Below, piece after piece: positions 297 to 39,782 of a stretch of DNA of 64,000 nt. The DNA lies in assembly GCF_014205155.1 (NCBI RefSeq), contig NZ_JACHMX010000001.1, positions 3,658,001-3,722,000 on the forward strand, in the 5' to 3' direction. Position 1 is the stretch's first letter. Each line of letters starts with the position of its first letter. This stretch comes from Amycolatopsis umgeniensis (GTDB lineage: Bacteria; Actinomycetota; Actinomycetes; Mycobacteriales; Pseudonocardiaceae). The notes beneath the pieces were generated by a model. It had not been told where the DNA came from. It saw only the letters and a list, made by a program, of their open reading frames with translations, and ran no database searches. A program made the translations under genes and the position numbers.

Positions 297-349
297 CGCG
301 TGAAGGCCCCCTTCCCTCGGCTCAGCCGAGGGAAGGGGGCCTTCACGCG
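297..349. repeat. 53-nt perfect palindrome (family F3), probable bidirectional terminator
   Basis: Arms 297-322 and 324-349 are exact reverse complements around a single central base (323). The arm carries TGAAGGCCCCCTTCCCT, the family-F3 signature also seen near 22081 and 29246. It sits between two convergent genes, which fits a bidirectional terminator, although there is no long U tract. Confidence 0.85.
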
Positions 350-4632: not shown

Positions 4633-4633
<1 letters not shown>

Positions 4634-5706
4634 CACACTCGCTCCTCGCTTCGCCGCGCCGGCGTCGCCGCCGCGACCTCGTCCGGCAACGGCCCGCCGT
4701 CCAGCCAGGCGACCGCGGCGTCCGCGGTGAGCGGGGCCATCAGGAGACCGTTGCGATGGTGACCCGTCGCGGCGAAGACACCTTCGCCCAGCTCACCGAT
4801 GAAAGGCATGGTGTCGACGCTGGCCGCGCGCAATCCGGCGGCGGTCTCGACGAGTTCGTATTCGGTGATGCCCGGGAAGACGCGCTCCGCGCCTTCGAGC
4901 AGCTCACGAACGCCCCGGACGGTGACGGTCTCGTCGAAACCGGCCTCGTACTGGGTCGCGCCGAGCACGAGTTGGCCGTCTTCCCGCGGGACGAGGTAGA
5001 TCGGGCGGCCCTCGACCATCGCGCGGACGGTCCTCACCGGTGGCGGCAGGCAGCCCCGGCGCGGCCGCAGGCGGAGGATCTCGCCCTTCAGCGGGCGGAC
5101 AGCGTCGGCGAGCGCGGGGTGCAGACGTCCGGTCCAGGCTCCGGCGGCGAGGACGACGTCGCCGTCGAGGTGTTCGAGCTCGGTGACGGTTTCGTGGCGG
5201 AACGCGACCCCGCGCTCGTCGCAGGCGTGTTTGAGTGCGCGCAGCAGCCTTCTGTTGTCCACGGCCAGATCACCGGGGACCAGCAGTCCACTTCGGACAG
5301 TGGAGGCGAGACCCGGTTCGGTGCGGCGGGCCTCGCGGCCGGTCAGCCGTTCGACCTCGCGGCCGAGTTCGGTGAGGTACGCGGCGAGCATTTCGAGGTT
5401 CCCCGCGTCGGCGCCGTCCAGCGCGACGACGAGCGTGCCGTGCGGCGAAAGCCCCGGGTCGACACCTTCTTTCGCCAGGTCACGGGCGAAATCCGGCCAG
5501 CGCCGCAGCGATGCCTCGCCGAGGGTGAGGACGTCCTCCTCGCCGGGCCAGGCCTCGGTGACCGGCGCGAGCATGCCGCCCGCGAGCCAAGACGCGCCGC
5601 GGCCGGGATCAGGGTCGTACACGGTGACGCGATGGCCGCGCGCGGACGCGCGCCAAGCGACCGCGAGGCCGATGACCCCGCCGCCGACAACCGAAAGTTC
5701 CTTCAT
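4633..5706 (-). CDS. thiO: Glycine oxidase ThiO
   Basis: 357 aa FAD enzyme of the DAO family that oxidises glycine to the imine used by ThiG. The N-terminus SVVGGGVIGLAVAWRASARG is the FAD-binding GxGxxG fold; GRGASWLAGGMLAP and the late GATQYEAGFD and FIGELGEGVFAATGHHRNG blocks follow the family. It is the first gene of the thiOSG operon. A TPP riboswitch ends 5 nt before its ATG, so thiamine pyrophosphate should hide the ribosome-binding region (GGGAGCG) and shut down translation. Confidence 0.95.
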
Positions 5707-5710
5707 GGAC

Positions 5711-5800
5711 GCACGCTCCCTGCGCCGGCATGACCCGGATCAGGTTCCACGGTCGGAGCGGTTTCGGCTCCCTCTCAGCCCGTCCTCGGGCTCCCGTGCG
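5711..5800 (-). promoter_or_regulatory. TPP (THI-box) riboswitch controlling thiOSG
   Basis: Read on the minus strand, the leader contains the two diagnostic TPP-aptamer blocks: GCTGAGAGGGA (around 5771-5779) and CTGATCCGGGTCATGCCGG (within 5720-5743), followed by the closing GCGCAGGGAGCG. The 3' strand of helix P1 lies within the probable ribosome-binding region of thiO, 5 nt before its ATG, so translational control is most likely. thiE on the other strand does not carry it. Confidence 0.95.
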
Positions 5801-5809
5801 GACCACCCC

Positions 5810-5837: not shown

Positions 5838-6503
5838 ATGCCCACCCTGTCTGATCCGCGGATCCGCGCACGGCTCGCGAACGCCCGCCTGTACCTCTGC
5901 ACCGACGCCCGGTCCGGCCGCGGCGATCTCGCCGAATTCGCCGACGCGGCACTGGCCGGCGGAGTCGACATCATCCAGCTGAGGGACAAGACCGGCGGCG
6001 CCCCGATCGAGGCGAAACACGAGATCGCGGCGCTGGAAGTGCTCGCGGAGGCGTGCGAGAGGCACGGGAAGCTGCTGGCGGTGAACGACCGCGCGGACGT
6101 CGCGCTCGCCGTCGGCGCGCACGTGCTGCACCTGGGCCAGGACGACATCCCGGTGGCGCTGGCCCGCGAGATCGTCGGCGACGACGTGGTGATCGGCCGC
6201 TCCACCCATTCGGCCGAACAGGCCAAGGCGGCCGCCGAAGAGCCCGGCGTCGACTACTTCTGCACCGGCCCGTGCTGGCCGACGCCGACCAAGCCCGGCC
6301 GCTCGGCTCCGGGGCTCGACCTGGTGCGCGCTACGGCCGCTTTCGGGACGTCGCGGCCGTGGTTCGCGATCGGCGGGATCGACGCCGAGCGGCTGCCCGA
6401 GGTGCTGGACGCGGGCGCGTCGCGGATCGTCGTCGTCCGGGCGATCACCGGCGCCGAAGACCCCGAGGCGGCCGCTCGCACGCTGCGCTCCGCCCTCGCC
6501 TGA
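5838..6503 (+). CDS. thiE: Thiamine-phosphate synthase ThiE
   Basis: 221 aa TIM barrel that joins HMP-PP to thiazole phosphate, giving thiamine phosphate. DIIQLRDK (44-51) and [11 protein letters not shown] carry phosphate- and Mg-binding residues; [12 protein letters not shown] (141-152) corresponds to the family block GPvfpTpTK, and WFAIGGID lies near the end. It is divergent from thiO and shares its short promoter region, but carries no riboswitch of its own and appears leaderless. Downstream is a pair of family-F1 palindromes, then a convergent membrane protein gene. Confidence 0.95.
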
Positions 6504-6526
6504 CGCCTGCTTGCGCGTGGGCTTCG

Positions 6527-6585
6527 GGTGTCGCGAAAGCCACTTTCGGGACGTCTGGTGTCCCGAAAGTGGCTTTCGCGACACC
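6527..6585. repeat. Palindrome F1a (26-bp arms, GTCTGGT loop)
   Basis: Arms 6527-6552 and 6560-6585 are perfect reverse complements around loop GTCTGGT. Each arm itself contains CGAAAG-3 nt-CTTTCG, so two small hairpins are an alternative fold. It lies between the convergent thiE and membrane-protein genes. Confidence 0.85.
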
Positions 6586-6620
6586 AGGGTGAGGTGAGGG
6601 CCGGGGTGGGGCGTGGGCAG

Positions 6621-6677
6621 GCGTTGTGAAAGTCGCTTTCGCAACCTTCACCGTTGCGAAAGTGGCGTTCGCAACGC
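6621..6677. repeat. Degenerate palindrome F1b (GTTGCGAAAG type)
   Basis: Arms of 25 nt (6621-6645, 6653-6677) around loop CTTCACC, with four positions departing from perfect symmetry. It follows the F1a element by 35 nt, the same order as at 15.1 and 37.9 kb. Confidence 0.7.
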
Positions 6678-6694
6678 GCCTTACCCCGCGATAA

Positions 6695-6709
6695 GTCCTC
6701 TGGATGCGG
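6695..6709. repeat. Half-site of palindrome family F2
   Basis: GTCCTCTGGATGCGG matches one arm of the F2 palindromes at 18901, 29139 and 37834, but the opposite arm is missing. It looks like a decayed copy at the end of an F1a-F1b-F2 composite. Confidence 0.5.
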
Positions 6710-6714
6710 GAGTG

Positions 6715-7425
6715 TCAGGGGGCCGGGGTTCCGGAGGCGGGAGCCGACGGGGTGGTCGGGGGCGCCTGCGAGGTCGACGGCGTCGTGGAGGGCGTCGTCG
6801 GAGGCGCCTGAGTGGTCGTGGGTGCCGTCGGGGTCGTCGACGGGGTCGGCGTGGTCGACGGCTTCGTCTCGGGCCCCTCGTCCTGGCTCTCCGAAGGGGA
6901 CGTCGCGGGCGGGGTGTCGTGCTTGTCCTGCCGCTCCTGGGCCTGGCCGCCGCCGATGATCTTCCCTATGGTCGTCCCGGTCCCGCCGCCGAAGCTCTTC
7001 CCGGTCGCGCCCTCGAAACCGGTGATCGCGACGAGCGCCACCACGAACGCCACCACGCTGACACCGGCGATCACCGCCCAGCGCGGTTTGAACTTCCGCT
7101 CGGAGGGCTCGTCATCCTCCGCCGGGGTGAGCCGGACGGTCTCCTGTTCCGACGGGTCGAGCACCTTGCGCCTGCCGGGAACGGTCAGCACCACTCGCGC
7201 CTTCAGCGCCGCGTCCTTCGTCCGTTGCAGCGAGCGCAGGTACAACTCGCCACCGAGTGTGGTGATCACACTCGCCAGCCCGGCGCCGGCCACCGTGCCC
7301 GCCACGCCGAGCGTGGAACCCAGCAAGGCCGCGGTGATCGCGGCCATCGCGGCCGCCAGCACCTGGACGATCCGCCCCTGCTTTTCCGTCTTTTCGGTGT
7401 CCTTTTCGGAGGTCTCCTTGGTCAT
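6715..7425 (-). CDS. Membrane protein with Thr/Pro-rich outer tail, unknown function
   Basis: 236 aa with no recognised enzymatic motif. A charged N-terminus is followed by an Ala/Gly-rich hydrophobic stretch (about 20-57, one or two helices), a cytoplasmic-looking charged segment, a clear membrane helix (WAVIAGVSVVAFVVALVAIT), then a low-complexity tail of about 75 residues dominated by Thr, Pro and Ser. Such tails are common in actinobacterial wall-spanning or mucin-like surface proteins. Its single-gene setting gives no pathway clue. It is divergent from the dehydratase gene. Confidence 0.6.
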   Translation of the reverse strand: MTKETSEKDTEKTEKQGRIVQVLAAAMAAITAALLGSTLGVAGTVAGAGLASVITTLGGELYLRSLQRTKDAALKARVVLTVPGRRKVLDPSEQETVRLTPAEDDEPSERKFKPRWAVIAGVSVVAFVVALVAITGFEGATGKSFGGGTGTTIGKIIGGGQAQERQDKHDTPPATSPSESQDEGPETKPSTTPTPSTTPTAPTTTQAPPTTPSTTPSTSQAPPTTPSAPASGTPAP

Positions 7426-13807: not shown

Positions 13808-14080
13808 CCTTACAGCCTGCCGGATCCATGACCCTCGACACCCGGGCGGGGAGACTTTCGCCACATACCGTGTCCGTTTCACGCCCACTTGAGGGGAATC
13901 TCCGCAGTCCAGAGGTGTACATCCCGGTAATGGAGATGCATGGACGTCCGACAAAATAAGAGACTGTGTCAACGGGCTGAACCACCGGTTTCGCTCAGGT
14001 GGGATTGCAGGGGCGCTCTCAGCTGTTAGTTGTGGTGTACAAGTACCAACCGGGGGCACACGGACGGAAGGGGACCCAAC

Positions 14081-14929
14081 GTGTACGGATTCGACAGCTA
14101 TGTGGCGATCGGTGACAGCTTCACCGAAGGACTCAACGATGATCTGCCCGACGGCACCTTCAGGGGCTGGGCGGACAGGTTGGCGGAGATCCTGGCCGAA
14201 GGCAGGCCCGATTTCCAGTACGCGAACCTCGCCCTCCGGGGGAAGATGCTCGACGAAATCCTCGAAGAGCAGCTGCCGATCGCGCTCGCGGTGAAGCCCG
14301 ACCTGGTCACCCTGTGCGCGGGCGGGAACGACATCATCGTGCCCGGCGCGGACGTGGACGCCGTCGCCGCGCGGCTGGAGGCGGGGGTCGCCAAGCTGCG
14401 CGAGGCCGGGATCCCGGTGCTCATCTTCAACGGGCCGGACACGAAGTACCTGTCCGTGATGCACGTCCTGCGCGGCAAGGTCGGCATCTACAACGCACAT
14501 CTGTGGGCGATCGCCGATCGCCACGGAGCGAAGATGGTCGACATGTGGGCGATGGCCCCGCTGCACGACCGCCGCGCGTGGAGCGACGACAGGCTGCACT
14601 TCACCCCCGAGGCCCACCGGCGGATCGCGTTGCGCGCGGCCGAGGTTCTCGGCGTCCCGGTCGCCGACGACTGGCGCGAGCCGTGGCCGGCGTCCGAGCA
14701 GCCGAGCACTTGGATCACTTCGCGCCGCTCCGACCTCGAGTGGACGAAGGCGCACCTGTTGCCGTGGATCCGGCGTCAGCTCAAGGGGGAGTCCATGGGC
14801 GACGGTCTGTCCCCGAAGCGCCCCGAGCTCGCGCCGTTGCTCCCGCTGGAGCAGATCGAGGCGGCGGCCGTCTCCCTCCCGGCCGAGCAGCTGCTTCCGG
14901 CCCGGGAGATCCACCACCACGCGAGCTGA
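14081..14929 (+). CDS. Cytoplasmic SGNH/GDSL-family hydrolase
   Basis: 282 aa from GTG 14081, with GGAAGGGGA 7 nt upstream. Block I is YVAIGDSFTEG (catalytic Ser), block III is LCAGGNDI (oxyanion Asn) and block V is DDRLHFTPEAH (catalytic Asp and His), so all four SGNH residues are present. No signal peptide, so it acts inside the cell as an esterase, deacetylase or lipase-like enzyme; the substrate is unknown. About 50 residues beyond the catalytic core (after SEQPSTWITSRRSDLEW) are not explained by the fold. A large palindrome array follows the stop. Confidence 0.85.
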   Translation: MYGFDSYVAIGDSFTEGLNDDLPDGTFRGWADRLAEILAEGRPDFQYANLALRGKMLDEILEEQLPIALAVKPDLVTLCAGGNDIIVPGADVDAVAARLEAGVAKLREAGIPVLIFNGPDTKYLSVMHVLRGKVGIYNAHLWAIADRHGAKMVDMWAMAPLHDRRAWSDDRLHFTPEAHRRIALRAAEVLGVPVADDWREPWPASEQPSTWITSRRSDLEWTKAHLLPWIRRQLKGESMGDGLSPKRPELAPLLPLEQIEAAAVSLPAEQLLPAREIHHHAS

Positions 14930-14953
14930 AGGGGACTTTCCCCTCATCTGGCG

Positions 14954-15004
14954 CCACGAAGGGGCCCTTCACCGCATGTGATGCGGTCAAGGGCCCCTTC
15001 GTGG
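14954..15004. repeat. Palindrome, F3-like (24-bp arms)
   Basis: Arms 14954-14977 and 14981-15004 pair with one mismatch around loop GTG. The outer arm reads CCACGAAGGGGCCCTTCA. It lies 24 nt after the SGNH hydrolase stop, a position that suits a terminator. Confidence 0.8.
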
Positions 15005-15075
15005 TCCCTGCCCACCTGACCCTGCGTTCGCGGGCGTTGCTCCCGGCCAGCCCTCACTTCCCCGGCACCTCCGCA

Positions 15076-15130
15076 TGTCGCGAAAGCCACTTTCGCGACG
15101 CCAGATGTCCCGAAAGTGGCTTTCGCGACA
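15076..15130. repeat. Palindrome F1a, copy in the 15-kb array
   Basis: 24-nt arms (15076-15099, 15107-15130) with one mismatch around loop GCCAGAT, inside the conserved GAC-7 nt-GTC core. Confidence 0.85.
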
Positions 15131-15208
15131 CCGCGACCCCACCGCGCCGCGCCGTGGAGCGACCCCTTCGGCGTTCCTGCGTCCCGACCGGCCCCGACGT
15201 CCGCGAAC

Positions 15209-15261
15209 GTTGCGAAAGTGGCTTTCGCAACGGTGAAGGTTGCGAAAGTGGCTTTCGCAAC
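15209..15261. repeat. F1b element with arms in direct orientation
   Basis: The same 23-mer (GTTGCGAAAGTGG plus CTTTCGCAAC) is present twice in direct orientation at 15209-15231 and 15239-15261, separated by GGTGAAG. Each copy is its own hairpin (10-bp stem, 3-nt loop). Other F1b elements have inverted arms. Confidence 0.8.
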
Positions 15262-15312
15262 GCGGACCCGACCAGCCCACACCCCAGACCCACTTCCCCG
15301 CCACCACCGCAC

Positions 15313-15365
15313 GTCGCGAAAGCCACTTTCGCGACGCCAGATGTCCCGAAAGTGGCTTTCGCGAC
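15313..15365. repeat. Palindrome F1a, near-identical duplicate
   Basis: 23-nt arms (15313-15335, 15343-15365) around loop GCCAGAT, identical to the copy at 15076 including its single mismatch. Confidence 0.85.
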
Positions 15366-15468
15366 ACCGCGACCCCACAGCGCCACGCCACGAAGCGGCC
15401 TTCCGGCCTCCATGTCACCCGACCGGGTTATGTCCTGAGCGTCCAATGCACGGGCGGCGTACGCGGCT

Positions 15469-15480: not shown

Positions 15481-16203
15481 ATGCCCGGTACACGCTGGAG
15501 CCGCTTGCTGCCTACAGCGCTGCTGGTCACGCTCGCCCTGACGGCGATTTCCGTCTGGTCGGCCTCGGACGACATCGAGGCCGAGCTTTCGGCGCGTGCG
15601 AAAAGCGCGCTCGCCGACGTCGGCGTCACCGGCGGTCAGGTGAGCTTCTCCGGCCGCGACGCGAGCCTCGCCGGCTTCCCGCCGGACAAGGCCGCGCAGG
15701 CGATGGACGCCATCCAGCGGATCGACGGGGTCCGCACGGTCGAGATCTCCGGCGACACCGCCCCGCCCGCCGGACCGGTGACGACCAGCGGCGAGCCGTC
15801 GAGCCCGCCGCCCGCGCCGCCGAGCCCGCCGCCCAGTCCCACGCCGACTTCGGCCAAACCGACGGACAAGGCCGGTTTCCAGGCCGAAATCGACCGCCTG
15901 CTGACCGCCACGCCGATCACGTTCGAACCGGACACCACCGAACTGACCGCGGACGGCGAACGCGGCGCGCTGGAGATCGCGAAGCTGCTCGAGGACGCGC
16001 CTCCCGAACTGCGGTTCCGGATCACCGGGCAGGTGGCGTCCGGTTCGGACAAGAAGCTCTCGCTGAGCCGGGCGCTGACTGTGGAGCGGCTGCTGGAGCG
16101 CAGCGGGGTCAAACGCGACCAGGCGTACTCCACCCAACGCAGGAACTCCGACGGCGCGAGCGGCGAGGGCCGCCGCGTCGACATCACGGCTGAACAGAGG
16201 TGA
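15481..16203 (+). CDS. ArfA-like BON/OmpA-domain envelope protein
   Basis: 240 aa. An N-terminal membrane anchor (about 9-28), a BON-like domain (about 30-95, ARAKSALADVGVTGGQVSFSGRDASLAGF), a Pro/Ser linker (about 97-125) and a C-terminal OmpA-like domain (ITFEPDTTELTADG to the end) give the order seen in Mycobacterium tuberculosis ArfA/OmpATb. OmpA domains bind peptidoglycan; ArfA is linked to acid adaptation and ammonia release. Here the role is inferred from domain order only. The next gene, 7 nt on, is a small membrane protein that could be its partner. Confidence 0.78.
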   Translation: MPGTRWSRLLPTALLVTLALTAISVWSASDDIEAELSARAKSALADVGVTGGQVSFSGRDASLAGFPPDKAAQAMDAIQRIDGVRTVEISGDTAPPAGPVTTSGEPSSPPPAPPSPPPSPTPTSAKPTDKAGFQAEIDRLLTATPITFEPDTTELTADGERGALEIAKLLEDAPPELRFRITGQVASGSDKKLSLSRALTVERLLERSGVKRDQAYSTQRRNSDGASGEGRRVDITAEQR

Positions 16204-18246: not shown

Positions 18247-18897
18247 ATGCCGACCGATCCACCACTCCCGCACCCGCCGGCCACCCGGTACGGCCCGGGG
18301 TTCGCCACGCACGGGACCAGGCACCGGAAGCCCAAGAACGGCCTGGTCATCGCCGGTTTCCTGATCGGACTGGCGGCACTCGGAGTCGCCTTCGTCCCGG
18401 TCGCGGGCCTGGCCGCTTGGCCGCTCGCCGTAGTCGGAATGATTCTTTCCGTGATTGGTTTGACCAAAATCAAGAAGGGCGAAGCGGACAAGAAGGGAAT
18501 GGGCGTCGCGGGGCTCGCGCTTTCCGTCGCCGGTTTGCTGGCCGCGAGCGGGTTACTGGTCTACACCAACTTCTTTGCTACCGGCGAGTCGGGACTGCAC
18601 ATCCCGGCGGTCTCCGGGGACAAGCACACCGTCGAGTTCGTCGTCAGCGCCTCCGGCGGCGCGACCGTCCGGTTCGGCGCGCTCAACGACCAGCGGACCG
18701 AAACGACCCCGGCCAGCACCGACGAATGGCGCGGTACGGCGTCGTTCAACTCGGGCGACTACCTGCTCACCGTCACCGCGGACACCCGGAACGCGTCGGT
18801 CAGCAACCAGATCGCCTGCACGATCCTCGTCAACGGCCAGAAGGTCGCGGAAAACAAGGGCCAGACCATCGCCTTGTGCACCGCGAGCACCGGCTGA
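18247..18897 (+). CDS. DUF4190 membrane protein with MmpS-like outer domain
   Basis: 216 aa. After a Pro-rich N-terminus come two membrane helices in the DUF4190 arrangement (GLVIAGFLIGLAALGVAFVPVAGLAAWPLAVVG, then KKGMGVAGLALSVAGLLAASGLLVY), separated by the short basic loop KIKKGEADKK. The rest (about 115-216) is an external beta-sandwich with TASFNSGDYLLTVTA and NQIACTILVNGQKV, similar to the MmpS transport-accessory domain, with two Cys that may form a disulfide. GAAAGGG precedes the ATG. Function unknown; the combination suggests an envelope role. Confidence 0.7.
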   Translation: MPTDPPLPHPPATRYGPGFATHGTRHRKPKNGLVIAGFLIGLAALGVAFVPVAGLAAWPLAVVGMILSVIGLTKIKKGEADKKGMGVAGLALSVAGLLAASGLLVYTNFFATGESGLHIPAVSGDKHTVEFVVSASGGATVRFGALNDQRTETTPASTDEWRGTASFNSGDYLLTVTADTRNASVSNQIACTILVNGQKVAENKGQTIALCTASTG

Positions 18898-18900
18898 TCC

Positions 18901-18964
18901 CGCGTTCCGTCCTCTGGATGCGGTACTTGCACGCGCAACGACCGCATCCAGAGGACGGAACGCG
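18901..18964. repeat. Palindrome F2 between convergent genes
   Basis: Arms of 24 nt (18901-18924 and 18941-18964) are perfect reverse complements carrying GTCCTCTGGATGCGGT; the inner TTGC/GCAA pairs extend the stem. It starts 4 nt after the upstream stop, as a terminator would. Confidence 0.85.
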
Positions 18965-19172
18965 GAAGGCCGCCTGGCGGCCGGCCGGTATCGCCCCCAC
19001 CTCCACCGGCCGGACCGCCACGAGCCGCTCCTGGCGGCTCTTCAGACGGATCCCGAAGGGTCCGCCCGAGCGTCGATCTTTACCTCTTGCCCCTCCCCTA
19101 GGGCTCGATCGACGCTGAACAGGACCCTACGCGCGCGAGAGGCGAGGCCACTAAGAATCCGCTAAGGATCAC

Positions 19173-21962
19173 TCACGGACCTTCGCCGAGGTCGGTGAGT
19201 TCCGCACGGACCAGCCCGGCGAGCTTCGGATTGGCGTCGGAAAGGATCTTCAGCGCGAGCGCGAACTGCTCGCGGGCACCGTCCACATCCGACCCGGCGC
19301 GCAGGACCCTGCCGAGCGTCAACCGCAGCACGCCCTCCTGGAGAACGAACCGCCTGCTGATCGTCAGGTCGACGGCCTCCCAGACGTACCGCTCGGCGGC
19401 GGCGAGTTCGCCGATCCGCATGCTCAGCTCGGCGAGGTTGTTCAGTGAGACGACGACGTAGCTCTCGTCGCCGAGGGTCCGGTCGATCTCCAGCGAGGCG
19501 ACCTGGTGCCCGATCGCCTCGATGAATCGGCCCGCCCGTTTTTCGGCCTCCGCGCAGTTGTTGAGCGCCTGCCCGCGCAATTCGAGATCGCCGGTCCGGT
19601 CGGTCTCCTCGACCGCCCGCCGCAGCGTGCCGATGGCCTCGTCGTGCCGCCCGAGCAGGGTCAGCGCGCTGCCGAGGTGGATGTTCGCCGAGACCACCAG
19701 CCGGTTGTCGCCGATCGCGCTCGCGAGTTCGAGCGCGCGTTCGGCGTCGGCGAGACAACCCTGCGGCAGCTCGAAAGTGAGCGCGATGGCGCAGCGCGAA
19801 ATCAGCATCCAGCACCGTCCGAGGACGTCGCCGGACCGCTCGGCGGCCTCCAGTCCGATCTCGACCAGCCGCGTCCACTCGTCGAGCAACGGGTACACGG
19901 CGCGATAGGTGTGCGCGACCCTGGCCAGCCGCCAGACGTCGTCGTGACGCCCGCCGGCGCGGGCGGCTTCGAGGACCTCGAGCAGGTTCGCCCATTCCGC
20001 GGTGAACCAGTCCTGCGCTTCGGTGAAGGAGCCGATCAGCGGGGTCTGCGCGTCGGTCAGCACTTCGGTGAAGTCGAGCGGGTCGACGATCCGCAGCATC
20101 TTCCGCCGCGCCCGGTCGGCGACGGCCTGATAGAACCGCACCGAGCGCGTCAGCACGTCTTCCCTGTCTTCCTCGTCGAGTTCGTTCTCCGCGAGCTCAC
20201 GGAGGAACAGCCGGACGAGGTCGTGCGGGACGAAGGAGTCACGGCCGGTTTCGGCGAGCAGATTGTGCGCGGCGAGCACCCGCAGATGCCGCCGCGCCTC
20301 GGCGACGGTGATCCCGGTGATCGCCGCCGTCAGATGCGAACCGGCCGAAACGCACTGGACCACACCGAGCCGCAGGAACGTGTTCGCGACGTCGGCGGGC
20401 AGACCGCGGAACGAGACGTCGAAAGCCGCGCGGACGCCGTCGTCCGGGCCCTCGACGTCGAGTGCGGCCAGCCTGGTCCGTTCGTTGCCGAGTTCGTCGA
20501 CGAGATCCTGCGCGGACCACTGCGCGCTGGCGGCGAGCCGGGCGCCCGCGATCCGCAGCGCGAGCGGGAGATAGCCGCAAAGCCGGGCGAGCGCGTGGTT
20601 GAGGTCGAATCCGGCGGGCCCGGCGAGCTCTTCGATCAGCCGGACGGCGTCACCAGGCGCGAGCGTGCCGAGGACGCGCAGTTTGGCGGCGTTGGACACG
20701 GCGAGCCCGTCGAGGCGGGAGCGGCTGGTCACCAGCGCCATCGACCGGGAACCGGGCGGCAGCAGCGGGCGGACCTGCTCGGCGGTGCGGGCGTTGTCGA
20801 GGATCACCAGCATCCGGCGCCCGGCGATCATCGAGCGGTAGAGCGCGATGCGTTCGTGGACCTGCTCGGGGATGCCGTCGGCGGGGACGCCGAGCCCGAG
20901 CAGGAACTGGGTGAGCAGATCGGCGGGTTCCAGCGGCGGGTGATGCGGGTCGAAACCCCGCAGCGAGGCGAAAAGGATGCCGTCGGGGAAGCGGCGGGCG
21001 GCGCGATGCGCCCACCACACCACCAGGCTGCTCTTGCCGATTCCGGCGGTCCCGGTGACCACGCCGACCGCGGTCTCGCCCGCCTCGGCCCGTTCGGCGA
21101 GTTCGTCGAGCCAGGCCAGATCGGCCTCGCGCCCGGCCAAGTTCGGCACGGCGGGCGGCAGTTGCTGGACGGGCTGCGCTTCGGATTTCGCTTCCGCGAC
21201 GACCTTGATCGGCAGGTCGTCGTTCAAGACGCGCTCGTGCAGCCAGCGCAGATCCGCGCCGGGCTCGACGCCCAGGGTTCGCAGGGTCGCGCGGGACACC
21301 GTGCGGTAGAGCTCGAGCGCGTCGCCGCGGCGCCCGGCGTGATAGAGCGCGCGCATCAACTGACCGGCCGTACGTTCGGCGAGCGGTTTGGCCCGGACCA
21401 GCGGGCTGAGCTCGACGATCAGCTCCGCGTGCCTGCCGAGTTCGAGATCCGCGTCGACCCTGGCGCCGTGGACGGCGAGCCGCAGGTCCTCGAGTTCGGG
21501 AGCGCGGACCGACCCGGGCACCCCGGCCAGCGCGGGCCCCTGCCAAAGCGCGAGGGCCTCGGCGAGCAACTCGGACGCCTTGTCCGGATCTTCGGTGGAC
21601 GCCCGCTCCAGCAGCGAACGGGCACGGTGCACGTCGATCCGGCCGGGCTCGACGGTCAGCTGATAGCCGGGCGGCGCGGTGAGGATCTGGGCGCCGCGCG
21701 GATGGTCGCCCTGGATGTCACGGAGCACGCGCCGCAGGTGGGAGACGTTGCCGTGGACGATCGTGCGGGCGGTGGCAGGCGGATCGTGCCCCCAGAGCGC
21801 GTCGATGATCTCGTCGAGCGCGACGACTTTGTTGACCTTCAAGGCCAGGAGCGCGAGCAGACCGCGGACGCCGGGACCGCCGACGGGAACCGGCCGATCG
21901 CCGTCGAGGAGGCGCACGGGGCCGAGGAGTTGGAAACGGGCCGGGGAACCGCTTTCGCCCAT
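19173..21962 (-). CDS. SARP-family transcriptional activator with NB-ARC and TPR domains
   Basis: 929 aa, the large AfsR/RedD-like form. The N-terminal OmpR-type winged helix (LLALLALKVNKVVALDEIIDALWGHDPPATARTIVHGNVSHLRR) and bacterial transcriptional activation domain (about 100-255) are followed by an NB-ARC ATPase (Walker A GTAGIGKSS, GYLPLALRIAG motif) and C-terminal TPR repeats (about 640-929). Such proteins bind direct repeats in promoters and activate secondary-metabolite genes; the ATPase/TPR part integrates signals. GGGAGGGGG precedes the ATG. No biosynthetic cluster is adjacent, so its targets are likely elsewhere. Confidence 0.9.
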   Translation of the reverse strand: MGESGSPARFQLLGPVRLLDGDRPVPVGGPGVRGLLALLALKVNKVVALDEIIDALWGHDPPATARTIVHGNVSHLRRVLRDIQGDHPRGAQILTAPPGYQLTVEPGRIDVHRARSLLERASTEDPDKASELLAEALALWQGPALAGVPGSVRAPELEDLRLAVHGARVDADLELGRHAELIVELSPLVRAKPLAERTAGQLMRALYHAGRRGDALELYRTVSRATLRTLGVEPGADLRWLHERVLNDDLPIKVVAEAKSEAQPVQQLPPAVPNLAGREADLAWLDELAERAEAGETAVGVVTGTAGIGKSSLVVWWAHRAARRFPDGILFASLRGFDPHHPPLEPADLLTQFLLGLGVPADGIPEQVHERIALYRSMIAGRRMLVILDNARTAEQVRPLLPPGSRSMALVTSRSRLDGLAVSNAAKLRVLGTLAPGDAVRLIEELAGPAGFDLNHALARLCGYLPLALRIAGARLAASAQWSAQDLVDELGNERTRLAALDVEGPDDGVRAAFDVSFRGLPADVANTFLRLGVVQCVSAGSHLTAAITGITVAEARRHLRVLAAHNLLAETGRDSFVPHDLVRLFLRELAENELDEEDREDVLTRSVRFYQAVADRARRKMLRIVDPLDFTEVLTDAQTPLIGSFTEAQDWFTAEWANLLEVLEAARAGGRHDDVWRLARVAHTYRAVYPLLDEWTRLVEIGLEAAERSGDVLGRCWMLISRCAIALTFELPQGCLADAERALELASAIGDNRLVVSANIHLGSALTLLGRHDEAIGTLRRAVEETDRTGDLELRGQALNNCAEAEKRAGRFIEAIGHQVASLEIDRTLGDESYVVVSLNNLAELSMRIGELAAAERYVWEAVDLTISRRFVLQEGVLRLTLGRVLRAGSDVDGAREQFALALKILSDANPKLAGLVRAELTDLGEGP

Positions 21963-22128: not shown

Positions 22129-22134
22129 TCCCTT

Positions 22135-22173
22135 GTGTGGATTTCGGGACGTTGGATGTCCAGAAATCCACAC
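22135..22173. repeat. Palindrome F4 with GTTGGAT loop
   Basis: 16-nt arms (22135-22150, 22158-22173) with one mismatch, GTGTGGATTTCGGGAC on the left. The loop region GAC-GTTGGAT-GTC has the same plan as the F1a elements although the arms are unrelated. Confidence 0.75.
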
Positions 22174-22224: not shown

Positions 22225-22279
22225 TGTGGGGTGTGTGGAAATAGGGACGTTGAACGTCCCTATTTCCACACACCCCACA
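22225..22279. repeat. 55-nt perfect palindrome F4 with GTTGAAC core
   Basis: 24-bp perfect arms (22225-22248, 22256-22279) around GTTGAAC, whose outer bases also pair, so the symmetry runs to a single central base. The core is GAC-GTTGAAC-GTC. Confidence 0.85.
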
Positions 22280-22400: not shown

Positions 22401-22441
22401 CGGCTCCGTGCCATCAGTCCCGATCTGATGGCACGGAGCCG
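22401..22441. repeat. 17-bp perfect hairpin
   Basis: CGGCTCCGTGCCATCAG (22401-22417) pairs exactly with 22425-22441 around loop TCCCGAT. It belongs to none of the other families. Confidence 0.8.
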
Positions 22442-29138: not shown

Positions 29139-29196
29139 GTTTTGTCCTCTGGATGCGGTAGTTGCACGCGCAAGGACCGCATCCAGAGGACGAAAC
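29139..29196. repeat. Palindrome F2
   Basis: 21-nt arms (29139-29159, 29176-29196) carrying GTCCTCTGGATGCGGT, with one unpaired position; the loop contains TTGC/GCAA as in the 18901 copy. Confidence 0.8.
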
Positions 29197-29245: not shown

Positions 29246-29288
29246 GAAGGCCTCCTTCGCTACCTTCAGGGTAGGGAAGGAGGCCTTC
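29246..29288. repeat. Palindrome F3
   Basis: 18-nt arms (29246-29263, 29271-29288) with one mismatch around CTTCAGG, arm signature GAAGGCCTCCTTC. It lies 62 nt beyond the DUF445 stop and may terminate that operon. Confidence 0.75.
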
Positions 29289-37833: not shown

Positions 37834-37897
37834 CGCGTTTCGTCCTCTGGATGCGGTACTTGCGCGCGCAAGTACCGCATCCAGAGGACGAAACGCG
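37834..37897. repeat. 64-nt perfect palindrome F2
   Basis: 32-bp perfect arms with no loop (centre between 37865 and 37866). The arm contains GTCCTCTGGATGCGGTACTT. It starts 3 nt after the VOC stop. Confidence 0.9.
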
Positions 37898-37930
37898 TGA
37901 GGGTGCGCTGGCCGGTGAGGGTGCTGCACA

Positions 37931-37985
37931 TGTCGCGAAAGCCACTTTCGGGACGTCTGATGTCCCGAAAGTGGCTTTCGCGACA
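37931..37985. repeat. Palindrome F1a (perfect, GTCTGAT loop)
   Basis: 24-bp perfect arms (37931-37954, 37962-37985) around GTCTGAT; core GAC-7 nt-GTC. Confidence 0.9.
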
Positions 37986-38031
37986 CCCGAGATGGCGGTG
38001 AGGCGGGCTCCGGGCGGAGACGCACCTGCGC

Positions 38032-38084
38032 GTTGCGAAAGCCACTTTCGCAACGTTCAAGGTTGCGAAAGTGGCTTTCGCAAC
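38032..38084. repeat. Palindrome F1b (perfect, GTTCAAG loop)
   Basis: 23-bp perfect arms (38032-38054, 38062-38084) around GTTCAAG. It follows the F1a copy by 46 nt. Confidence 0.9.
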
Positions 38085-38135
38085 CCCTTCCCAAGGAGCA
38101 CCCGCCGCGGCGGGCACCGGCCAGGATGCCTCGCC

Positions 38136-38200
38136 CGCATTCAGTCCTCTAGATGCGGTAGTTCGCGCGACGAACTACCGCATTCAGAGGACTAAATGCG
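38136..38200. repeat. Palindrome F2 overlapping the end of the ligase gene
   Basis: 30-nt arms (38136-38165, 38171-38200) with three mismatches around CGCGA. The right arm covers the last codons and stop of the benzoate-CoA ligase gene, so the palindrome is partly coding. Confidence 0.8.
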
Positions 38201-39782
38201 GAGGGGCGGGAGCCTGGATGTCGTACATGTCCCGCACCAGTTCGCGGATGACGTTGCGCCGGATCTTCCCGGTCGCCGTCTTCGGTAGTTCGCCCAGCTC
38301 GACGACGCCACGCGGCCGTTTGAACGACGCCAGCCCGGACCGGCAGAACTCGATCAGCTCGTCCGCGTCCAGCCTCCTGCCGGGCACGCCGACCACGCAC
38401 GCGACCGGTTTCTCGATGCCGTCGGCGTCGAAGGCGGCCACGACCGCGACCTCGGCGACCGCCGGATGCTGCAGCAGCCTCTCCTCGACTTCGGAGGGCG
38501 ACACCCAGATCCCGCCTGGCTTCAGCATGTCGTTGAAGCGCCCGAGACAGGTGTAACTCCCGTCGGCGTTCCGTACGAAGCTGTCGCCCGTCCGCAGCCA
38601 TTCGCCCTGGAAGACCCGCTTCGTCGTCTCGTAGCGCGCCCAATACCCCGTCGCGATCGACGGCCCGGCCACGAACAGCTCACCGGGCTGCCCGTCGGGC
38701 ACGGGCGCGCCGTGTTCGTCGCGCAGGGCGACCTCGTAGCCGGGCACCGGCACCCCGGTGCTGCCGGGGCGCACCTGACGCGGGCGATTGGACAGGAAGA
38801 TGTGCAACGCCTCCGTCGAGCCGATCCCGTCGATGATCTCGACGCCGAACCGGTCACGGAACCGTTCGTACAGCACGGCGGGCAGCGGTTCCCCCGCCGA
38901 AACCGCTTGGCGCACCGAGGCGAACGTGTCGTCCGGGATGTCACTGGCGAGCAGCGCCGCGTAGAAGGTGGGGACTCCGAAGAACAGCGTGGGCCGCTCC
39001 GCGCGGACCCTGGCGGCGATCAGTCCCGGGGTCGGCCGCGCCGGTTCGAGCAGCGTCGTCCCGCCCGCCGCGAGCGGGAAGAAGGCCGAATTCCCCAAGC
39101 CGTAGGCGAAGAACAGCTTCGGCACGGAAAGGAACTTGTCGTTCGGGCCTGTGTCCAGCACGCCGCGCGCGTACGTCTCGCAGACCGCGCGGATCCCCGC
39201 GTGCCGGTGCATCGCCCCCTTGGGCTTGCCCGTCGTCCCCGACGTGTACAGCCAGAGCGCGGGCGAGTCCTCCCAGGTCGGCGCCGGTTCGAAACCGTGA
39301 TCGTCCACTGTGGACAGATCGTTCCAGTCGTGCGCGCGGACCCCGGACGGCAGTTCGGCCGCCTTGGCCCTGTCCAGCACGACGTCGGTGACCTCCGGCG
39401 CCAGCCCCAGCGCGATCGCCGCCTGCCCGGCGAACTCGCCGGAAACGCACAGGACCCTCGCCCGCGCATCGGCGAGCACCTTGCCGAGGTCCAGCCCGGT
39501 GACCATGGTGGACACGGGTACCGCGACCGCTCCGGCCAGCATCGCGCCGAGAATCCCGGTGAGCAGTTCGACGTCGTCGACCATGCAGAACAGGACCCGC
39601 TCCTCGGGGCGGACCCCGAGCGCCTTCAGCCCCGCCGCGACCCGGCGGGATTCGGCCGCGAGCCCGGCGTACGTGAGACTCCGCCGCGGGGAGACGACCG
39701 CGTCCTTCCCCCCGTGCCCTTCCGCGAGATGCCTGTCGAGCAGGTAGCTCGCCGCGTTGAACCCGGTAGCGGCAGCGGTCAC
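38184..39782 (-). CDS. bclA: Benzoate-CoA ligase
   Basis: 532 aa acyl-adenylate enzyme that activates benzoate to benzoyl-CoA with ATP. Motifs: WLYTSGTTGKPKGAMHRH (P-loop), IDGIGSTEALHIFLSN (A5), GEWLRTGDSF (A7) and LPKTATGKIRRNVIRE with the catalytic Lys (A10). FFAYGLGNSAFFPLAAGGTTLL is typical of benzoate-CoA ligases. GTG 39782 is preceded by GAAGG, 20 nt after boxB. The final residues (HLVL-stop) are encoded inside an F2 palindrome, so the C-terminus has probably been rewritten by the repeat. Confidence 0.9.
   Translation of the reverse strand: MTAAATGFNAASYLLDRHLAEGHGGKDAVVSPRRSLTYAGLAAESRRVAAGLKALGVRPEERVLFCMVDDVELLTGILGAMLAGAVAVPVSTMVTGLDLGKVLADARARVLCVSGEFAGQAAIALGLAPEVTDVVLDRAKAAELPSGVRAHDWNDLSTVDDHGFEPAPTWEDSPALWLYTSGTTGKPKGAMHRHAGIRAVCETYARGVLDTGPNDKFLSVPKLFFAYGLGNSAFFPLAAGGTTLLEPARPTPGLIAARVRAERPTLFFGVPTFYAALLASDIPDDTFASVRQAVSAGEPLPAVLYERFRDRFGVEIIDGIGSTEALHIFLSNRPRQVRPGSTGVPVPGYEVALRDEHGAPVPDGQPGELFVAGPSIATGYWARYETTKRVFQGEWLRTGDSFVRNADGSYTCLGRFNDMLKPGGIWVSPSEVEERLLQHPAVAEVAVVAAFDADGIEKPVACVVGVPGRRLDADELIEFCRSGLASFKRPRGVVELGELPKTATGKIRRNVIRELVRDMYDIQAPAPPHLVL

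Follow-up and report, generated by a model that had tools for sequence, protein, structure and literature searches.

The strong hairpins found at gene ends in the Amycolatopsis umgeniensis genome are best explained as REPIN-like elements, in which a doublet is copied, each genome holds a library of families and bursts occur in particular lineages. We give this explanation about an even chance of being correct. In its favour are the copy numbers, the doublet geometry, the conserved cores beside variable flanks, the siting and the turnover described below. The window, meaning the whole stretch of 64,000 nucleotides that was analysed, covers positions 3658001-3722000 of a single-contig genome of 9,225,930 bp (9.23 Mb). 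In the proposed scheme, the unit would be a short conserved core (approximately 23 nt in F1 and 15-24 nt in F2) placed twice, head to head, and the core pair would fold into one hairpin of 50-65 nt in single-stranded DNA or RNA. The doublet would be the copied unit, with solo arms as probable remnants. Of the several families in a genome's library, a few would burst in each lineage and displace the others. Copies would survive almost only where insertion is harmless: directly past the stop codon of a gene, and most of all in the gap between two convergent genes. The hairpins, which carry no T-tract, are probably also two-way barriers to read-through. Copying is most likely performed in trans on single-stranded DNA by a hairpin-recognising enzyme other than a RAYT or Y1 transposase.

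Three array sites in the window were read directly from the sequence, and the palindromes were computed (Table 1). The array at 15076-15365 has the order F1a-F1b-F1a, with both F1a copies residing inside a local tandem duplication (15055-15164 and 15291-15400) that is 92% identical and 236-bp spaced. The group at 37834-38201 has the order F2-F1a-F1b-F2 and occupies the convergent slot between the glyoxalase gene and the AMP-binding gene.

Table 1. Hairpins, arms and neighbouring genes, in window coordinates
Feature	Position	Strand	Description
F3 hairpin (GTGAAGGCCCCCTTCCCTCGG)	297-349		slot called convergent
thiE-type gene	5838-6503	+	left neighbour of the 6527 convergent slot
F1a doublet hairpin	6527-6585		arms 6527-6552 and 6560-6585, 26 nt, 100% complementary, 7-nt spacer
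F1b doublet hairpin, decayed	6621-6677		arms 25 nt, 84% complementary
Solo F2 arm (GTCCTCTGGATGCGG)	6695-6709	+	without partner, half an element
Gene without Pfam match	6715-7425	-	right neighbour of the 6527 convergent slot
GDSL lipase gene	14030-14929	+	upstream neighbour of the 15076 tandem slot
F3-like hairpin (GAAGGGGCCCTTCACCGCAT)	14954-15004
F1a doublet	15076-15130		tandem (+,+) slot
F1b doublet	15208-15262		rare direct type (TGG..TGG)
F1a doublet	15313-15365		second copy within the local duplication
OmpA-domain gene	15481-16203	+	downstream neighbour of the 15076 tandem slot
F2 hairpin	18900-18965		starts 3 nt past the + gene 18247-18897
F5 hairpin (GTGTGTGGAAATAGGGACGTT)	22225-22279		diverged copy at 22134-22173
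F2 hairpin	29139-29196
F3-class hairpin (GAAGGCCTCCTTC)	29246-29288
F2 hairpin	37834-37897		perfect 32-bp arms; starts 4 nt past the glyoxalase-family gene (end 37830)
F1a doublet hairpin	37931-37985
F1b doublet hairpin	38032-38084
F2 hairpin	38135-38201		right arm covers 38184-38186, where the AMP-binding gene (38184-39782, -) has its stop codon

A comparison with Rfam gave five matches, none of which identifies the hairpins. Only one of them exceeds its gathering score, a TPP riboswitch away from the hairpins, at 5700-5807 on the minus strand (64.5 bits against a gathering score of 54.3), at the start of an FAD-dependent oxidoreductase gene (4633-5706). Sub-threshold matches overlapping the palindromes at 296-350 and 14953-15004 were taken as chance. 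A separate hairpin at 22401-22441 (GGCTCCGTGCCATCAGTCCCGATCTGATGGCACGGAGCC) belongs to a group of 18 with one member in each of 18 clade sequence sets, and a BTAD/TPR regulator gene (19173-21962, minus strand) starts approximately 440 nt downstream of it. By eye, its stem is altered and its loop is similar in the outgroup species. It is a putative conserved single-locus cis element or RNA outside the dispersed families.

The position of the palindromes relative to genes was studied in the 424 kb around the window, where a simple codon-usage model called 395 genes (89% coding). This region holds 60 palindromes with a score of at least 15, versus 0 in each of five first-order Markov sequences of equal length, and 58 of the 60 lie outside called genes. 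The 74 convergent slots hold 36 of them, the 247 tandem slots 19 and the 73 divergent slots three, with two in coding sequence. The palindromes thus lie at gene ends, and the proposal in the initial annotation that these are not a random set of terminators is supported. Convergent slots with at least three palindromes are only mildly above random (5 of 74; simulated mean 2.08, with 152 of 5000 simulations at least as high). In the clade that carries F1 and F2, 423 palindromes were collected after merging of copies with identical flanks, part of the loci having been fetched by an F1/F2 match: 197 are convergent, 179 tandem, 8 divergent and 22 coding, and 17 lie at sequence edges. The convergent ones have a median distance of 15 nt to the nearest stop, and 128 of the 179 tandem ones are closer to the end of the upstream gene. 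For slots with at least 30 nt of room both here and in the sister species G050, a palindrome is present in one or both genomes at 29 of 34 convergent sites, at 24 of 109 tandem sites and at 4 of 62 divergent sites. As loci L001-L060 and L106-L185 were fetched by exact F1/F2 match, the clade family sizes, the context counts and the slot-based core invariance lean to F1/F2; the counts in the 424 kb and the core-versus-flank profile are independent of these loci.

Clustering of the clade palindromes placed 353 of the 423 in groups of at least three. The largest groups are F1 (100), the F3 class (83), F2 with its variant F4 (61), F8 (27) and the F3-like class (25), followed by smaller ones, with F1 and F2 inflated by the locus fetching; a few small groups are orthologous loci or coding sequences, like the single-locus group of 18. 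Rough sorting of 88 palindromes from the unselected 424 kb gave 28 F3, nine F1a, nine F2, eight F1b, three F5, one F8 and 30 others. At least five further palindrome families share the same type of slot, besides those named in the initial annotation.

Among 121 F1 doublets, 111 are inverted, seven direct and three neither; the centre triplets read CCA..TGG in 108 and TGG..CCA in none, many of these loci having been fetched by the F1 core on either strand. The F1 units are head-to-head doublets with a polarity. In the A. umgeniensis genome, 30 pairs of F2 arms are spaced at 32-33 nt and a 31st at 19 nt, all inward-facing, while 31 F2 arms have no exact partner. Across arms found by structure (19 of F2 and 42 of F1, with 19/32 or 18/29 matches required, respectively), the core is conserved and the outer bases and those near the loop are variable. 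A single F1 arm clearly folds alone (mean z -4.3), with weak values for F3 and F2 (approximately -1.2), 0 to -0.7 in other groups of at least four, and -1.4 to -2.1 in three groups of one to three. The general rule that each arm is its own hairpin was dropped, because it is clear for F1 only.

Several relatives show a further architecture at slots 8510 and 37403, where a family of tandem units of approximately 21 nt (ACTCGCGTGATTGGAGGCGTA) is mirrored on the other side to give hairpin arms of up to 67 nt. In G035, a hairpin of another family (GCGTTTAGCCCGCTAAAGGCG) replaces the loop of the F2 element at slot 37403, and by eye a second nearby copy lies between two near-identical 14-nt stretches. 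At slot 29049 in G045, there is a 1.5-kb two-gene insertion bounded by palindromes (genes 317-1301, minus, and 1427-1799, plus). By eye, these genes are quinone-oxidoreductase-like and an HxlR-like regulator, and fragments persist in G026 and G061.

It had been suggested from the window that F1a, F1b and F2 recur together as composites. This was examined at a looser threshold with the 88 palindromes, which form 23 adjacent pairs, by shuffling the labels 5000 times. F1a and F1b are adjacent in five of the 23 pairs, against a shuffled mean of 0.44 and with no shuffle as high. The suggestion holds in part: this adjacency exceeds chance, but the order and the gaps (30-97 nt) vary. At 6527-6709, F1a and F1b are present as described, and F2 is represented by a single unpaired arm (6695-6709). 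The further idea of a fixed composite unit was not supported. Order and gaps are variable, the spacers show no resemblance by eye, and other families also combine (F1-F3, F3-F1 and F1-F2), so that the arrangement is one of co-location. In G050, no F1a-F1b pair was found in the 440 kb searched, which has one F1a and no F1b among 81 palindromes.

The same annotation had inferred a dispersed, duplicating repeat family, and copy numbers support this. The exact F1 core GCGAAAGTGGCTTTCGC occurs 124 times genome-wide (61 forward and 63 reverse) and the exact F2 arm GTCCTCTGGATGCGGT 93 times (46 and 47 per strand), with 0 matches for either reversed-pattern control. F1 is present in 20 and F2 in 19 of 80 genus genomes, and both are present in 19 genomes of one clade. 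The remaining 61 have neither, except for a single F1 match in G063 that equals its control (1); the F2 control gave one match each in G040 and G062, both without F2. A 2.5-kb anchor (window 19300-21800) matches at 88-93% identity in the other 18 positive genomes and at no more than 78% in the remaining 61, and the positive genomes are therefore taken as one group. They also stay together in a tree that includes two outgroups and is based on 16.5 kb of aligned coding sequence. Among the matches listed, motif-bearing records include A. azurea, A. keratiniphila, A. decaplanina, A. roodepoortensis and A. thailandensis. The F2 loci are unevenly distributed along the A. umgeniensis chromosome and are densest at approximately 2-5 Mb (62 loci, chi-square p 0.0009).

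Elsewhere in Amycolatopsis, 80-100 kb per genome yielded nine palindromes in G070, two in G065, ten in G003, seven in G074 and four in G010. In G070, G003 and G074, several copies have a common core by eye, with a similar layout and different letters. The core from G003 (CGAATGTGGCTTTCG) has 646 matches in G003, 132 in G027, 43 in G058, 10 in G054 and five in G071, and 0-2 in each of the other 75 genomes. An apparent strand bias of this core was attributed to a listing of plus-strand matches only, as 100 kb of G003 shows both strands. Ten other genera of Pseudonocardiaceae (40 kb each) gave 11 palindromes, with arms of 15-19 nt in all but one.

Within the clade, F2 is written in genome-wide "dialects": the ratio of GTTGCG to GGATGCGG arms is 315:1 in G013 and 17:93 in the A. 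umgeniensis genome. Counted in the order GGATGCGGT/RGTTGCGRT/GAATGCGGT/F4, the variants number 93/17/18/0 in A. umgeniensis, 9/121/2/0 in its sister G050, 1/315/0/2 in G013, 4/0/0/58 in G064, 3/3/3/65 in G015, 138/4/147/1 in G034, 202/6/21/0 in G035 and 14/1/2/1 in G002. The other eleven clade genomes hold mixes, and none of the four variants occurs in the 61 genomes outside the clade. Neither the genomes with the GTT dialect (G050 and G013) nor those with the F4 dialect (G064 and G015) form single tree branches. When slot-based F2 arms were compared, leaving out arms below 19/24 matches, arms from different slots of the same species have an identity of 0.877 (66 pairs), against 0.818 (sd 0.009) when species labels are shuffled within slots, with 0 of 2000 shuffles as high. 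When species differ, sharing a slot raises the identity of two arms very little (0.829, against 0.815 for arms that share neither slot nor species). The copies evolve in concert. The DNA uptake sequences of the Neisseriaceae also occur in dialects, which those of F2 resemble.

Turnover is rapid between sister species. Family F11 (GGCCCGTTACTTGCAAA) has 174 arm matches in G050 and 125 in G038, two each in A. umgeniensis, G013 and G075, and none in the other 75 genomes; this amounts to one copy here against approximately 87 in G050. The two sisters are 95.2% identical over 16.5 kb, and 329 orthologous slots were compared. Their convergent slots are occupied in both in 17 cases, in A. umgeniensis only in six, in G050 only in ten and in neither in 24. 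Among the 28 slots of all kinds that are occupied in both, 14 are like and 14 unlike in sequence. As the likeness rate of random pairs is 0.055, many copies are inherited rather than new, a point against the REPIN-like reading. At the slot at 6504/6527, A. umgeniensis has F1a, F1b and half an F2, and 18 relatives have, by eye, an F2 hairpin in 11, an F4 hairpin in three, unrelated palindromes in three and nothing in one. From one species to the next, a given slot can thus pass from one family to another. These comparisons are of species-level genomes (at most 95% identity to A. umgeniensis), in which no insertion was seen in action, and this also weighs against the REPIN-like reading. A clade of 19 species with conserved gene order is in effect a natural experiment, in which one junction carries different hairpin families or dialects.

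It could be postulated instead that the hairpins are two-way terminators selected at convergent ends, the likeness of copies arising by ectopic gene conversion that overwrites the letters and keeps the hairpin. We consider this unlikely. It accounts for the siting at convergent and 3′ ends, with 29 of 34 roomy convergent slots filled in at least one sister, and for the stable folds predicted for the three hairpins of the window on which this was computed (-42 to -62 kcal/mol). At the 18897 slot, an F2 or F4 hairpin is found in 15 of the 19 clade genomes, and short footprints remain by eye in two of the four without it. Paired changes occur there at 9 of 27 base pairs, a number reached in 0 of 500 shuffles, and a hairpin at position 3551379 has a compensated change with almost unchanged flanks. 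Both cases support the terminators, and the paired changes at 18897 count against the REPIN-like reading because selection on the hairpin would give the same result.

Other evidence runs against the terminators. An intrinsic terminator joins a hairpin to a U-tract, and T is not enriched on the coding strand after the stems (0.185 over 573 tails versus 0.174 in intergenic DNA, with at least five T in ten nucleotides in 30 of the 573). There is no sign of tolerance for RNA wobble, as sense-strand mismatches in tandem slots comprise 42 G.U and 59 A.C; this is a weak test with arms shorter than 18 nt left out, and many mismatches are shared family features. Within an F2 element, the two arms resemble each other no more closely than they resemble the arms of other F2 elements (0.903 versus 0.896, sd 0.007, 22 elements of the A. 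umgeniensis genome). Structural selection alone leaves the shared sequence and the bursts unexplained. Co-occupancy of convergent slots by the sisters (odds ratio 6.8, p 0.0013) is not claimed, because the 24 doubly empty slots have a median length of approximately 6 nt; among slots with at least 30 nt of room, the counts become 17/5/7/5, not clearly above independence, which again speaks against selected terminators. The mechanism tests together favour copying of a conserved doublet over selection on RNA pairing alone. If the hairpins do end transcription, a genus of high-GC antibiotic producers would have gene-end barriers that are renewed as mobile DNA.

A second rival sees the hairpins as binding sites of a sequence-specific DNA protein, such as gyrase or a protein of the nucleoid or of segregation. 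The protein would relieve or anchor the supercoils that lie between convergent genes, and the dialects would track it. The conserved cores in variable surroundings, the inverted doublets in a single orientation, the uneven density of F2 along the chromosome (p 0.0009 for the 62 loci) and the genome-wide dialect shifts would all be expected of such sites. We nevertheless judge it improbable, since at least six families separated by clustering occur in such slots, unlike families fill one orthologous slot, and a swing from one to approximately 87 copies between sisters is unlike a needed site. Least credible is an origin with no special enzyme, in which template switching and slippage during replication perfect palindromes and copy them elsewhere: perfect symmetry, hybrid and multi-arm forms (L-L-R and L-R-R), solo arms and footprints after loss and the failure to find a Y1 transposase fit it, but the equal likeness of arms within and between elements argues against ongoing arm-by-arm correction, and dispersal over megabases and the F1 polarity of 108:0 need more than slippage.

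The REPIN-like reading leads to the question of what copies the doublets. The initial annotation had looked to a linked RAYT or Y1 transposase, and none was found in the 80 genus genomes. The RAYT profile (PF01797) has matches in 0 of 80, with control rings positive in 5 of 14, and it works in the family, where it was found in 16 of 100 genomes drawn. No constant target-site duplication or fixed insertion point was consistent in 38 comparisons of empty and occupied sites, approximately half of which come from one slot: there is one case of 13 nt, two of 7 nt at the same slot and none in the other 35. Among 148 palindrome neighbours in the A. umgeniensis genome, clustered rather than annotated singly, there is no multi-copy protein family; in one cluster of three (ABC-type ATPase by eye), two entries come from overlapping loci. 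These three results count against the REPIN-like reading.

Carriers of the elements were also sought. A transposon with F2 ends was considered for two loci at which F2 arms are separated by 1.9 kb, and rejected, as these show, at the level of gene calls, like gene runs in two species and no sign of an IS; no autonomous element with the same ends was seen at either. Phage carriage was rejected as well: one stretch of viral contigs has the F1 core and 17 have the F2 arm, which are probably chance because each lists a single exact match. Plasmid sequences gave no matches at E 0.001. The spread of REPINs is tied to RAYT, yet doublets are abundant here, with RAYT found in none of the 80 genomes. 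This raises a testable question, whether the hairpins are copied by another agent or without a dedicated enzyme. One possible answer, which we hold tentatively and consider doubtful, is a RAYT-free mobile system. In such a system, a hairpin-recognising activity would copy a library of doublets into convergent ends, homogenise the dialects and swap families at the same junctions within sister-species time, so that the gene-end barriers would be mobile DNA.

Among the open-licence papers listed, screened by title and the start of the abstract, no description of such repeats in Amycolatopsis or other actinobacteria was found; an earlier account may exist elsewhere. MITEs resemble the present elements as short, non-coding, dispersed inverted repeats, and differ in that here target duplication is not consistent and the two 1.9-kb F2-arm loci show no sign of an IS. 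The 3′ ends mapped by Term-seq in Streptomyces clavuligerus (PMC8269248) likewise have stable hairpins without a U-tract, and those acting in two directions have longer stems. In the part of that account used here, no dispersed sequence families are described, unlike in Amycolatopsis. The CGTC-tagged REPs (Di Nocera et al. 2013, PMC3733652) also form head-to-head dimers with no dedicated transposase known, and their convergent copies mostly lie within 20 bp of both 3′ ends. They are listed in five phyla without Actinobacteria, and the main text of that paper has no mention of Actinobacteria, Streptomyces or Amycolatopsis. As far as that source describes them, they have stems of 8-9 bp and a CGTC tag that stays unpaired, whereas CGTC or TGTC in F1a and F5 lies inside the stem by eye; no unpaired GTAG or CGTC tag was found in F1b or F2.

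The comparison with REPINs rests on the description by Bertels and Rainey (2011, PMC3116915). The clean contrast with REP sequences drawn earlier from arm length and symmetry is not sustained, as inverted doublets of similar build are known from that source. Differences from REPINs as given there include the failure to find RAYT in any of the 80 genus genomes, the presence of several unlike families in one genome, long stems of 23-32 bp and a high-GC actinobacterial host. As in REP sequences and REPINs, there are many extragenic copies of a core and these pair in inverted orientation into a hairpin. Within what that source reports, the likeness extends to units that are present outside genes in high copy number and consist of two inverted REP-like cores with a variable spacer, and to compensated changes in the hairpin. 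The inverted arrangement is found there in 93% of 430 doublets, with singlets held to be remnants, and here in 111 of 121 F1 doublets.
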